The notes under the pieces are model-generated. The model worked only from the letters and a program-made list of their open reading frames with translations. It was not told where the DNA came from and searched no databases. Positions 37,789 to 42,087 of a stretch of DNA of 64,000 nucleotides are shown piece by piece. Both the position numbers and the translations under genes were made by a program. Source of the stretch: Fimbriimonadaceae bacterium. GTDB lineage: Bacteria; Armatimonadota; Fimbriimonadia; Fimbriimonadales; Fimbriimonadaceae. The stretch is from the NCBI GenBank assembly GCA_026129685.1, contig JAHCHO010000001.1:186001-250000 (forward strand). Reading direction: 5' to 3'. Position 1 is the first letter of the stretch; each line of letters begins with the position of its first letter.

Positions 37789-38075
37789 ACGACGGCGCTT
37801 TGTATCGAAAACTCGTGGACCTGTACGCGGGCGGCGAACTGCCCGCCGAACTCGAAGAGGAAATGGAGTGGGCGAGCATCGCCGACCCCGATCTCGCCCG
37901 CGATATGGTCAGCCTGCGGCGAACGGTCGAGGCCCTGCGGGCCGCCCCGATCCCCGCCTACGGAGAGGAATCCATGCAACGGGTGCTGATGAAGCTCTAC
38001 ACCCGCGGCCTGGACCTCCAGCCCCGGGCCCCCGAGCCCACCCACTTGCAGTATCACCTGCCCATCAGCGGCTAG
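37785..38075 (+). CDS. Putative anti-sigma factor (small, soluble)
   Basis: 96 residues, ATG overlapping the sigma stop. YRKLVDLYAGGELPAELEEEMEWASIADPDLARDMVSLRRTVEALRAAP resembles the helical sigma-binding N-terminus of zinc-finger anti-sigma factors. However, the HxxxCxxC zinc motif and any transmembrane segment are missing. Assignment rests mainly on position. dnaN starts 19 nt after its stop. Confidence 0.55.
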   Translation: MNDGALYRKLVDLYAGGELPAELEEEMEWASIADPDLARDMVSLRRTVEALRAAPIPAYGEESMQRVLMKLYTRGLDLQPRAPEPTHLQYHLPISG

Positions 38076-38094
38076 GTAGAAGGAGTCATCTAGG

Positions 38095-39192
38095 TTGAAG
38101 GTCGATTGCCGAAGAGCGGATTTGAACGAAGCGGTTAGCCTGGCGAGTATCGCCGCCACCGGGCGCACCCCCCTCACCATCCTTCAGAACTTGCGGATGG
38201 ATGCCACCGGCGCCCATATGCGCGTCCTGGGGTGCGACGGGGAGATGTGGGTGCAGCGCACCATTCCCGTCACCATTCACCAAGAGGGCAACATCTGCCT
38301 TCAGGCCAAGCTCCTGAACGACATCGTCGGCTCCCTCCCCGACGGCGACGTCCATCTCGACGTCACGGACAAGGGCGCCCTCCTCACCGAGGGCAACTCC
38401 GAGTACCGCATGATGACCCTCGAGCCCGAGGACTTTCCCGAGCCTCCCGAGACCGGCTCCGAGGCCACCCTCAACCTGCCGATGCGGCTCTTCCGCGAGG
38501 CCGTCAACTCCGTGGTGTACGCCGTCGCGACCGACAGCCATCGCCCTGTCCTCACCGGCGTCCTGTTCACCTACGACGGCACCAACCTCACCCTCGTCGC
38601 CACCGACACCCACCGCTTGGCCCACCGCAAGGTCGCCGGCGAGGGTCTCGGCAGCCCCGTCACCGCGATCGTCCCCGAAAAAGCCCTCAGCGCCATCCTC
38701 CGCATGCCCATCGCCGACGACCAGGAAGTGAAACTGCAGTTCGGCGAAGGACGGCTCGGCGTGGAAGTGGACGGCGCGAAAATGGTCTGCCAGCTCCTTC
38801 CCGACCCGTACCCGAACTGGGAGCGCGTCGTCCCCACCGAGTTCACGCGCACCTGGTCCGTCGAAGTCGATCAGATGAAGGACAAGGTCAAGCGAACGCT
38901 GATCATTGCCCGGGATGCCGCGTTCCGCGTCATCTTCAGCGGCCAGGCCAACGAAATCCTCATCTCGGCCAAGAGCGAGGAACGAGGCGAGGCGAAAGAG
39001 GAACTCCCGATGGTTGGCACCGGCGGCGACATCAAGATCGCCTTTAACGGCAAGTACGTCCTCGACGCCCTCGAGCCGATCAAAGCTCCCGGCGCGCGCG
39101 TCGAACTGACGGAAAGCTCCCGCTCCGCCGTCATTCGCTCGACCGAGGACGACCAGTACTTCTGCGTGATCATGCCGATGGCCCTGGGTTAG
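38095..39192 (+). CDS. dnaN: DNA polymerase III beta subunit (sliding clamp)
   Basis: 365 residues, TTG start at 38095 with AGGAG nine nt upstream. MKVDCRRADLNEAVSLASIAATGRTPLTILQNLR opens domain I. LTGVLFTYDGTNLTLVATDTHRLAHRK is the domain II signature, and the terminal FCVIMPMALG matches the clamp C-terminus (usual MPMRL, here MPMAL). The ring-shaped dimer tethers replicative polymerase. It is not next to dnaA; it follows a sigma/anti-sigma pair. Normal length. Confidence 0.97.
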   Translation: MKVDCRRADLNEAVSLASIAATGRTPLTILQNLRMDATGAHMRVLGCDGEMWVQRTIPVTIHQEGNICLQAKLLNDIVGSLPDGDVHLDVTDKGALLTEGNSEYRMMTLEPEDFPEPPETGSEATLNLPMRLFREAVNSVVYAVATDSHRPVLTGVLFTYDGTNLTLVATDTHRLAHRKVAGEGLGSPVTAIVPEKALSAILRMPIADDQEVKLQFGEGRLGVEVDGAKMVCQLLPDPYPNWERVVPTEFTRTWSVEVDQMKDKVKRTLIIARDAAFRVIFSGQANEILISAKSEERGEAKEELPMVGTGGDIKIAFNGKYVLDALEPIKAPGARVELTESSRSAVIRSTEDDQYFCVIMPMALG

Positions 39193-39201
39193 CCCCCGAG
39201 T

Positions 39202-39390
39202 TGTCATCCTGAGCGAAGCGAAGGATCCCTGGATCGCCATCAGGAGCAAAGGGGCATCCGCGGGCCCGCCATCCTGCGAGCCTGTCATCCTGAGCGAAGC
39301 GAAGGATCCCGAGACCGCCATCCCGAAACAGGAGGCATATGCGGGCCTGTCATCCTGCAGGTCCGTCATCCTGAGCGAAGCGAAGGACCC
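39202..39390 (+). repeat. Three copies of an interspersed repeat (TCATCCTGAGCGAAGCGAAGGA type)
   Basis: 28-nt units at 39202-39229, 39283-39310 and about 39364-39391 share the core GTCATCCTGAGCGAAGCGAAGGA. A partial copy lies near 39348, and a diverged relative at 55126. This core recurs in intergenic regions of many environmental bacterial genomes and yields spurious GSFASLRMT-type peptides on the opposite strand. No gene is present between dnaN and 39441. Confidence 0.85.
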
Positions 39391-39440
39391 CGGATCGCCC
39401 ATCCCCTGAGCCCCCGATTCGGGTAAACCCTCGTCGAGCC

Positions 39441-39695
39441 ATGAAGATCGCGATCGAATTCTGCGTCGTCTGAAACTACTTCCCGCGCGCCGCCGGTCTG
39501 GCGGAGGCCCTGGTCGAAGCGTTCGCGAAAAGCCCCGATCCGGCGGACGCTTTGGAGTCCGTCACCCTCCTCCCCTCATCCGGCGGCGTCTTCGAGGTCA
39601 CCGTGGACGATCGCCTGGTCTACTCCAAGCGCGCGACGGGCAAGCACGTGACCCCGAGCGAGGTCGTAGCCTTGATCCACGAGCGGCCGCGCTGA
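39441..39695 (+). CDS. SelW/Rdx-family selenoprotein (CxxU thioredoxin-like)
   Basis: 84 residues if the in-frame TGA at 39471 is selenocysteine. Before it: MKIAIEFCVV. After it: NYFPRAAGLAEALVEAF, then SVTLLPSSGGVFEVTVDDR and LVYSKRATGKHVTPSEVVAL. This matches the Rdx/SelW family block by block: the CxxU redox motif after beta-1, GGVFEV, and the SK...TG..P...EV ending. Family members are thioredoxin-like redox proteins. The reading frame is continuous on both sides to the stop at 39693, and a bacterial SECIS-like hairpin follows the TGA. The alternative, a nonsense-mutated Cys gene (TGC/TGT to TGA), is less likely given the hairpin. Gene predictors would miss it. Confidence 0.85.
39471..39504 (+). 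promoter_or_regulatory. Bacterial SECIS element
   Basis: The UGA is followed after 16 nt by CCGCC (39490-39494), the loop GGTCT (39495-39499) and GGCGG (39500-39504). The GGUCU apical loop is the one recognised by SelB in the E. coli fdhF SECIS, and its distance from the UGA (21 nt to the loop) is in the bacterial range. Confidence 0.75.
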
Positions 39696-39814
39696 GCCTC
39701 GGCCCTATACTGGGGGCCAGATCAGGCTGGGCTTTCCCGAGGTTGCCAGAATCGGCATGGATCGGCACCGAAAGCGCGTTCCCGGGACCTGTATTCCACG
39801 AGATGCGTCCCGCA

Positions 39815-40879
39815 TCACCTTCCTGCCCGCGCGATCTGCCCATAGATACGCGCCGTCGGCTCGGGCACCAGCCAGCCGCGCATCGCCGCCGCCGCCCGCT
39901 CGCGCCGCTCCGGGTCGCCGATCCAGTCGTTCAGGGCCGAGATCAGGCACTCCGGCGTCGCGTCCCGCTCCTGGATCACCGTGGCCGCCCCGAGTTCCGA
40001 CAGCTCCCGCGCGTTGTGCGTCTGGTGGTCGTGCATCGCGATCGGCAAAGGCAACACGACCGCCGGAACCCCGAAGTGCGCCAGCTCGACCAACGTGCTC
40101 GCCCCGCCGCGACCCAGGAACACCGTCGCCCGCCCGAGTTCCCGCGCCACCGCCTCCTCGTCCAGGTACGCCACCGCCTCGTAACCTGCGCCGAGCCCAA
40201 GTCGCGCCGCCTCCGCCCGGTTTTCCTCGTAAGCGCCCCGCCCGGTGGCATGGGTCCAATCGAGACCCTTCCCGAGCGCCGCCGCCTGCAACACCCGCCG
40301 GTTCACGCCCCGAGCCCCCTGCGAGCCGCCCATCACCAGCACCCTTCTCGCCTCGGGTTCGCGCCCCGACAGGGCCTCGAGCAACCGCGCCCGGATCGGC
40401 AGACCCACCCGATCGACCTTCGCCCCCGGAAACTCGGTCAGACTCCGCTCGAACGTCACCCCCACTGCCGCCGCCTTGCGCGCGAACAAGCGGTTCGACC
40501 GACCCGGTACCGAGTTCTGCTCGTGGATCACCAAGGGAATCCCCAGGCGAGTCGCCGCGTTCATCGCCGGTGCCGCCGAATACCCGCCCGTCGAGAACAC
40601 CACGCTCGGGCGCAAGGTCCGCAACGACCTCGCCGCCAACACGCTCGCCCGCAGCAGGTTCATCGCCGCGATCCAGCCGCGCGGGCGACGCAGACTCGTG
40701 AGCGGTTCGGCCGGGAATCCCTGGAATGCGAAGCCGTCCGCCGCGCAAGCCGCCGACTCTTGGCCCCGCAGGGAACCCAAATACGTGACCTCGTCCCCGA
40801 GCGAGCGCGCGTGCCGCGCCACCTCGAGCGCCGGGAAGATGTGCCCCCCGGTCCCGCCGCCCGTCACCACGAGCCTCAT
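39815..40879 (-). CDS. murG: UDP-GlcNAc:undecaprenyl-PP-MurNAc-pentapeptide GlcNAc transferase
   Basis: 354 residues; makes lipid II from lipid I at the inner face of the membrane. GGGTGGHIFPALEVA, SFSTGGYSAAPAMNAA-type VVFSTGGYSAAP, HEQNSVPGRSNRLFA, MGGSQGARGVNRRV and the nucleotide-binding FLGRGGASTLVELAHFGVPAVVLPLP are all present. ATG 40879 overlaps the ftsW stop (ATGA). Last gene of the dcw operon here; murC, ftsQ, ftsA and ftsZ do not follow. Confidence 0.97.
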   Translation of the reverse strand: MRLVVTGGGTGGHIFPALEVARHARSLGDEVTYLGSLRGQESAACAADGFAFQGFPAEPLTSLRRPRGWIAAMNLLRASVLAARSLRTLRPSVVFSTGGYSAAPAMNAATRLGIPLVIHEQNSVPGRSNRLFARKAAAVGVTFERSLTEFPGAKVDRVGLPIRARLLEALSGREPEARRVLVMGGSQGARGVNRRVLQAAALGKGLDWTHATGRGAYEENRAEAARLGLGAGYEAVAYLDEEAVARELGRATVFLGRGGASTLVELAHFGVPAVVLPLPIAMHDHQTHNARELSELGAATVIQERDATPECLISALNDWIGDPERRERAAAAMRGWLVPEPTARIYGQIARAGR

Positions 40880-42087
40880 CGCGACCCCGAGACCGAAACC
40901 CGCCCGGTCGGCACCCCGACCCCCGGGGTCACCACCGCCGCTTCCGGGACCGCCCGGACCGCGCTCTGGCAGAGGCCGATCGCGAGCCACAGGGCGAGCA
41001 GACTCGAACCGCCGTAACTGACGAACGGCAACGGCACTCCGATCGCCGGCAGCGTCCCGTTCGCCGTCAGCACGTTCACCGTCGTCTGCAGGCCGATCCA
41101 AACCCCGACCCCCCCGCACACAAGCGCCCCGAAGGGCGTTTTCGCCCGGCGAGCTAGGATGAACAACCGGAAGACGACCCCCCCGAGCGACACGATGACG
41201 AGCGCCGCGCCGACGAACCCGAACTCCTCCGCCAGCGTCGTCAGAACGAAGTCGGTCGTCGCCGCCGGAAGGATGTGCTTGATGCGACCCGCTCCCAGTG
41301 ACACCCCCGTCGAGCCACCGATCGCCATCGCCAACTCGCTCTGGGTGCTCTGGTAACCCGTGTCGTCCACGTGCTCGTCCGACCAGCGCTGGAAGTGGCG
41401 GGCGATGCGGTCCCAGCGGTAGTCCTGCTGCTTGACGAAGAACAGGCCCCCGCCCAAGCCGAGCGCCGCCAGCGCGACGAGCGACGCGACGCTCACGCCG
41501 CCCAAAAGCAACATCCCATAGGCGATGCAAGCCAGGACCGACGCCGTGCCCAAGTCCTCGACCGCGACGACGCCGAGCATGATCGAGACCCAAAGGAGCG
41601 GTACCGCCCGCGCCGCCTTCGGGACCAGCACGTTGTCCAGCCAACTCGCCACGTCGGTGACCCGCCCCAGGGGTCGAAACGCCGGTCGTGTCGCGAGCAC
41701 GCCCGCCAGGTAGAGGATGAGACCCACCTTGGCGAACTCGCTGGGCTGGATCGTCACGCCCTTGACCCCCAGCCACTGCCGCGCCCCGTTCATCTCGACG
41801 CCGAAGATCGGAACCGCCAGGACGAGGACCAGCATGAGGAGCCAGAAGACCTTCGCCGACCGTTGCCAGGTGTCGATTCTCGCCTTCGACGCCGCCACGA
41901 ACAGGACGAGCCCGCCCGCCAGGCACCCGATCTGAACGAGGAGCTCACGCCAAACCCAACCGCCTCCATCGTCGATCGCCTTGACGTACCCGGCGTCGTA
42001 GACCGCGAACAGCCCGATCAAACTGGCGATCCCCACCAGGATGAACAACGGGCGATCCACGACCGATCCTTGGAGCAGGCGCCTCAC
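40876..42087 (-). CDS. ftsW: SEDS peptidoglycan glycosyltransferase FtsW
   Basis: 403 residues, GTG 42087 overlapping the mraY stop. Around ten membrane segments. The SEDS signatures QPSEFAKVGLILYLAGVL, TQSELAMAIGG...AAATTDFVLTTLAEEFGFVGA (near the catalytic loop) and the end PFVSYGGSSLLALWLAIGL are clear. Polymerises septal glycan with FtsI. The context between mraY and murG supports FtsW rather than RodA. Confidence 0.95.
   Translation of the reverse strand: MRRLLQGSVVDRPLFILVGIASLIGLFAVYDAGYVKAIDDGGGWVWRELLVQIGCLAGGLVLFVAASKARIDTWQRSAKVFWLLMLVLVLAVPIFGVEMNGARQWLGVKGVTIQPSEFAKVGLILYLAGVLATRPAFRPLGRVTDVASWLDNVLVPKAARAVPLLWVSIMLGVVAVEDLGTASVLACIAYGMLLLGGVSVASLVALAALGLGGGLFFVKQQDYRWDRIARHFQRWSDEHVDDTGYQSTQSELAMAIGGSTGVSLGAGRIKHILPAATTDFVLTTLAEEFGFVGAALVIVSLGGVVFRLFILARRAKTPFGALVCGGVGVWIGLQTTVNVLTANGTLPAIGVPLPFVSYGGSSLLALWLAIGLCQSAVRAVPEAAVVTPGVGVPTGRVSVSGSR

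Follow-up and report, generated by a model that had tools for sequence, protein, structure and literature searches.

Bacterial SelW-like selenoproteins with a CxxU active site have been known since about 2005 and are recorded in PMC1088965, PMC1794560, PMC2398784 and PMC13188914. In the Sargasso Sea (48 genes) and in the GOS survey (427 genes) no selenoprotein family was more abundant (PMC1088965, PMC2398784), and the current list of prokaryotic selenoproteins includes them as CxxU proteins with one Sec only (PMC13188914). A redox function has been suggested for them and interaction with glutathione has been noted (PMC1088965), and few or no Cys homologues are reported among Sec-using organisms (PMC1794560). 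SELENOW also has CxxU (PMC8508763), and eukaryotic selenoprotein genes have their SECIS element in the 3'-UTR and not as a hairpin in the coding region (PMC13188914).

We analysed a stretch of DNA of 64,000 nucleotides (the window) which, judged by comparison with other sequences, almost certainly holds at 39441-39695 a genuine bacterial SelW-like (Rdx family) selenoprotein gene of a member of the Armatimonadota, with Sec at UGA 39471. An earlier note on this DNA had described the gene as overlooked; this can be said of the window gene at most and does not hold for the family, which has been described repeatedly since 2005, and the novelty here is mainly the bacterial group. In the literature on selenoproteins we found no relevant account for Armatimonadota, Fimbriimonad- or Gemmatimonadota. 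A real gene is given its full-length reading, and Armatimonadota are added as a lineage for which no published selenoprotein account was found, with the SelW-like gene supporting selenium use in this group.

Reading frame, family and predicted fold

The TGA at codon 11 is the single internal stop of the frame, with no other among its 84 codons, and read-through gives a product of 84 aa, MKIAIEFCVVUNYFPRAAGLAEALVEAFAKSPDPADALESVTLLPSSGGVFEVTVDDRLVYSKRATGKHVTPSEVVALIHERPR. The codon-position GC of the frame is gene-like, and the frame is the sole match to the SelW-like family in the whole genome. No clear Shine-Dalgarno sequence or ribosome-binding site was seen upstream of the ATG, and an Rfam search of window positions 38000-41000, with E up to 1, returned zero matches.

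Table 1. Positions of the selW-like gene, its predicted elements, its neighbours and related loci. Positions refer to the window unless a contig or locus is named.
Feature	Position	Strand	Remarks
selW-like selenoprotein gene (predicted)	39441..39695	+	84 codons plus stop; start ATG 39441, coding part 39441-39692, terminal TGA 39693-39695; based on frame, profile matches, homologues and predicted fold
Cys8 (TGC)	39462..39464	+	presumed resolving partner of Sec11 (CxxU); Cys in homologues except 3 Verrucomicrobiales loci with TGA
In-frame TGA, read as Sec11 of C8-V-V-U11	39471..39473	+	TGA in 97/97 loci; Cys in 2fa8 and 3dex
Predicted bSECIS hairpin core	39490..39504	+	stem CCGCC / GGCGG; apical loop GGTCT 39495-39499
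dnaN	38095-39192	+	upstream neighbour of the selW-like gene
27-nt repeat GTCATCCTGAGCGAAGCGAAGGATCCC	39202-39391		three copies, 81-nt spacing, in the spacer between dnaN and selW
MurG-like gene, convergent	within ORF 39815-41926	minus	named from sequence
selD with in-frame TGA (HCAGUAGKLG)	genome contig C1:144695-145600 (L114)	minus	
UGMU loci	L075:3001, L077:3001, L086:3001		contigs PAPL01000092, DUBC01000010 and CALCSP010000250, respectively

The earlier note had proposed that this frame matches Rdx/SelW when the TGA is read through, and its coordinates proved exact: Pfam PF10262 (Rdx) covers residues 2-80 of the read-through product with an E-value of 7.7e-19 and 68.1 bits (cut-off 22.6), and NCBIfam TIGR02174 (CXXU_selWTH) matches at 2.9e-15 with 56.3 bits, above its cut-off of 34.2. 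The best NCBIfam E-value, 3.7e-21, belongs to NF041051 (SelTWH_Campy), but its 75.1 bits lie below the cut-off of 88 and place the product outside that equivalog as curated. The active site C8-V-V-U11 follows beta-1, and further downstream come GGVFEVTVD, at residues 48-56, and the SK motif, the two signatures that had been pointed out from the sequence (the first as GGVFEV). In its domain, length, CxxU, GGVFEVTVD and SK motifs and in the codon position of the Sec-UGA, the product is the same as the bacterial SelW-like (SELENOW-like) selenoproteins; from the members in other phyla it differs in sequence and lineage only, with identities of about 44-61%, and its segment between helix 1 and beta-2 is longer than theirs, a trait common to most of its order-level relatives.

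An AlphaFold model built from an alignment of the window protein and the locus proteins (pLDDT 95.1, pTM 0.84) predicts the element order beta-alpha-beta-beta-beta-alpha. In a Foldseek search of the PDB the best 22 matches were all SelW-family chains, among them 2fa8, 2obk, 3dex, 2oka, 2ojl, 2p0g and 2npb (mouse SelW), and thioredoxins came lower down, so that model and matches together give the thioredoxin-like fold of SelW. The Cys-type Rdx structures 2fa8 (Atu0228) and 3dex (SAV_2001), and 2obk, 2oka, 2ojl and 2p0g, which are presumably of the same type, superpose with TM-scores of 0.81-0.85, and mouse SelW, of the same family, with 0.55. Alignment with Cys homologues, which the earlier note had suggested, sets the CxxC of 2fa8 and 3dex (CTQC in both) against CxxU, with Cys where the window has Sec; the TGA does fall at the second redox cysteine position, as had been claimed.

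Without read-through the sole ORF left is one of 47 aa at 39552-39695, which is listed as an ORF, and a start after the TGA, at TTG 39552, would make this the real protein. Such a product would, however, lack beta-1 and helix 1 together with the two active-site residues, and the homologues are conserved upstream of the TGA, as far as MKI..EFC, which refutes this reading; we regard it as extremely improbable.

Conservation of the TGA and the selenocysteine machinery

The homologue set comprised 97 loci, of which 80 are from named genomes of many phyla (Gemmatimonadota, Actinomycetota, Chloroflexota, Acidobacteriota, Bacillota, Desulfobacterota, Planctomycetota, Verrucomicrobiota and others) and 17 are from the window's own order. 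The 80 relatives came from a scan of one-genome-per-species contigs with search patterns that left out the TGA codon. For the 17 order-level loci, the window's own and 16 more, 61 genomes of the order were searched without any pattern. TGA occupies the codon 11 column in all 97 loci, the window's own included, and a Cys codon in none of them, in agreement with the scarcity of Cys forms in PMC1794560; the Cys forms seen are the solved-structure proteins. The UGA is kept in homologues, as would be looked for in a selenoprotein gene, where it should remain UGA or give way to a Cys codon. Since the TGA stands at the same column in 97/97 loci, the TGA frame is not a product of chance.

The same count decides against a decayed Rdx pseudogene, in which a chance nonsense mutation would have turned the second Cys of an ancestral CxxC from TGC to TGA. 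This needs one base change only, and the absence of the gene from two congeners would fit a loss within the lineage, but an identical TGA across phyla refutes it, and the remaining frame is open, conserved and gene-like in its codon-position GC, in a genome that also carries the Sec machinery. Decay is therefore a reading to which we give almost no weight. The random stops in relatives that the earlier note had named as grounds for rejecting its proposal were not seen.

That note had also held that the frame implies a Sec pathway, and its components were all found. The host genome (3.94 Mb, 99% complete) has a tRNA-Sec gene (selC; 76 bits, anticodon TCA, long variable arm), an intact selA (484 bits, over cut-off), an intact selB over cut-off with GTPase, beta-barrel and SelB-wing_3 domains, and selD, also over cut-off; selA, selB, selC and selD are thus present together, as a selenoprotein gene would need. 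Close to its start, the selD frame contains a TGA of its own (MRLTHLVHCAGUAGKLG, N-terminal part), at the position where SelD is known to carry its active-site Sec, so that selD is very likely a second selenoprotein gene of the genome. A partial second SelB-like match (C15:60968-62155, L010), at 202.9 bits, lies below cut-off, has a TAG within its frame and is possibly an ordinary EF-Tu.

The frame would likewise stay open if a suppressor tRNA or a variant code placed some other residue, for example Trp or Cys, at the TGA. Against this, the selW-like gene itself terminates at a TGA, where its homologues end, tRNA-Sec with anticodon TCA, SelA and SelB are all encoded in the genome, and the TGA site is that of the redox Cys in solved homologues, which leaves reassignment of the codon a negligible chance beside its decoding as Sec.

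The hairpin downstream of the UGA

In the bSECIS model the apical loop has 3-9 nt and a G at one of its first two nucleotides, the stem has 4-16 bp, the distance from the UGA is 16-37 nt and the MFE is <= -7.5 kcal/mol (PMC13188914). The earlier note had suggested looking for a bSECIS element, and the outcome was favourable: the hairpin in the window, with its loop GGTCT, a stem of 5 bp, the apical loop 21 nt after UGA 39471 and an MFE of -8.2 kcal/mol for the core (-13.7 kcal/mol for 37 nt), fits the model and is conserved across the 97 loci. Taken alone, the window hairpin does not exceed dinucleotide shuffles (z +0.59, in a GC-rich gene) or synonymous recodings (z -0.11) in stability, and the case for a SECIS element therefore rests on comparison. 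Single-sequence folding was replaced by a synonymous-codon control and by wobble-wobble covariation over the 97 loci.

In 97/97 loci there is a hairpin of 4 bp or more whose loop contains a G, in some of them weak, and the mean z against protein-preserving recodings is -1.38 (Wilcoxon p about 7e-17, the sequences not being independent). With the register fixed over the 97 loci, pairing is seen in 79% of cells, and sliding one strand brings this to 25-57%. At offset 22, 94/97 loci have the loop G. The two wobble-wobble stem pairs, (20,26) and (17,29), each form in 88/97 loci, with compensatory changes that give several pair types, a level reached by 0/2000 shuffles, which ignore kinship. These comparisons are good evidence that an RNA hairpin after the UGA is under selection.

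With Sec as residue 11, we propose that on meeting UGA 39471 the ribosome would be served by SelB, with GTP and Sec-tRNA(Sec), bound to the hairpin just downstream, and that this complex would insert selenocysteine, SelA and SelD supplying Sec-tRNA and selenophosphate. The product would be a small protein of thioredoxin-like fold in which Cys8 and Sec11, where beta-1 ends, make up the CxxU redox site. By analogy with the SelW family, from which its redox chemistry is inferred, it would most likely act as a thiol/selenol oxidoreductase through a reversible S-Se bond.

Placement, distribution and related forms

In an RpoB tree the genome and its order-level relatives group with Armatimonadetes bacterium CG06 with support of 100/100, which makes Armatimonadota the most likely lineage; the identities of DnaN to that of named genomes did not reach a level that allows placement. 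Among 61 related genomes of the window's order, selA is found in 35 and selW in 17. Sixteen of the 17 with selW have selA, as do 19 of the 44 without it (Fisher one-sided p = 2e-4, with kinship of the genomes ignored), and the sole selW genome lacking selA is 73% complete. In a set of 12 named genomes with selW, 10 carry selA over cut-off.

Two congeners (G001 and G002) have selA, and in neither was selW detected by the pattern-free search; at their dnaN loci (L164 and L163) a different gene, with a membrane-protein-like frame, follows dnaN. Because of these two genomes, selW is, on present sequences, patchily distributed even inside the genus. A broader picture, in which Sec decoding is common in the order, for which no survey was found in the literature searched, and the order's SelW is a subtype marked by its longer alpha1-beta2 segment, by patchy gain or loss and perhaps by a lineage-specific redox partner, is offered tentatively and seems to us rather unlikely.

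The repeat in the spacer upstream of the gene recurs elsewhere: the genome holds 11 exact copies of its 22-nt core, the majority on contigs C11, C1 and C17, and a variant, TCATTCTGAGCGAAGCGAAGAA, is scattered across several contigs.

Three SelW-like loci of Verrucomicrobiales have TGA at codons 8 and 11 (MNVSILYUGMUNYKPQ), with UGMU in place of CxxU. UxxU forms of SelW are known from amphioxus and the alga Ostreococcus (PMC7539508), and for a bacterial UxxU SelW no report was found in the literature, of which our coverage was partial. All three genomes with UGMU frames have selA, and these forms merit more attention than the window gene.
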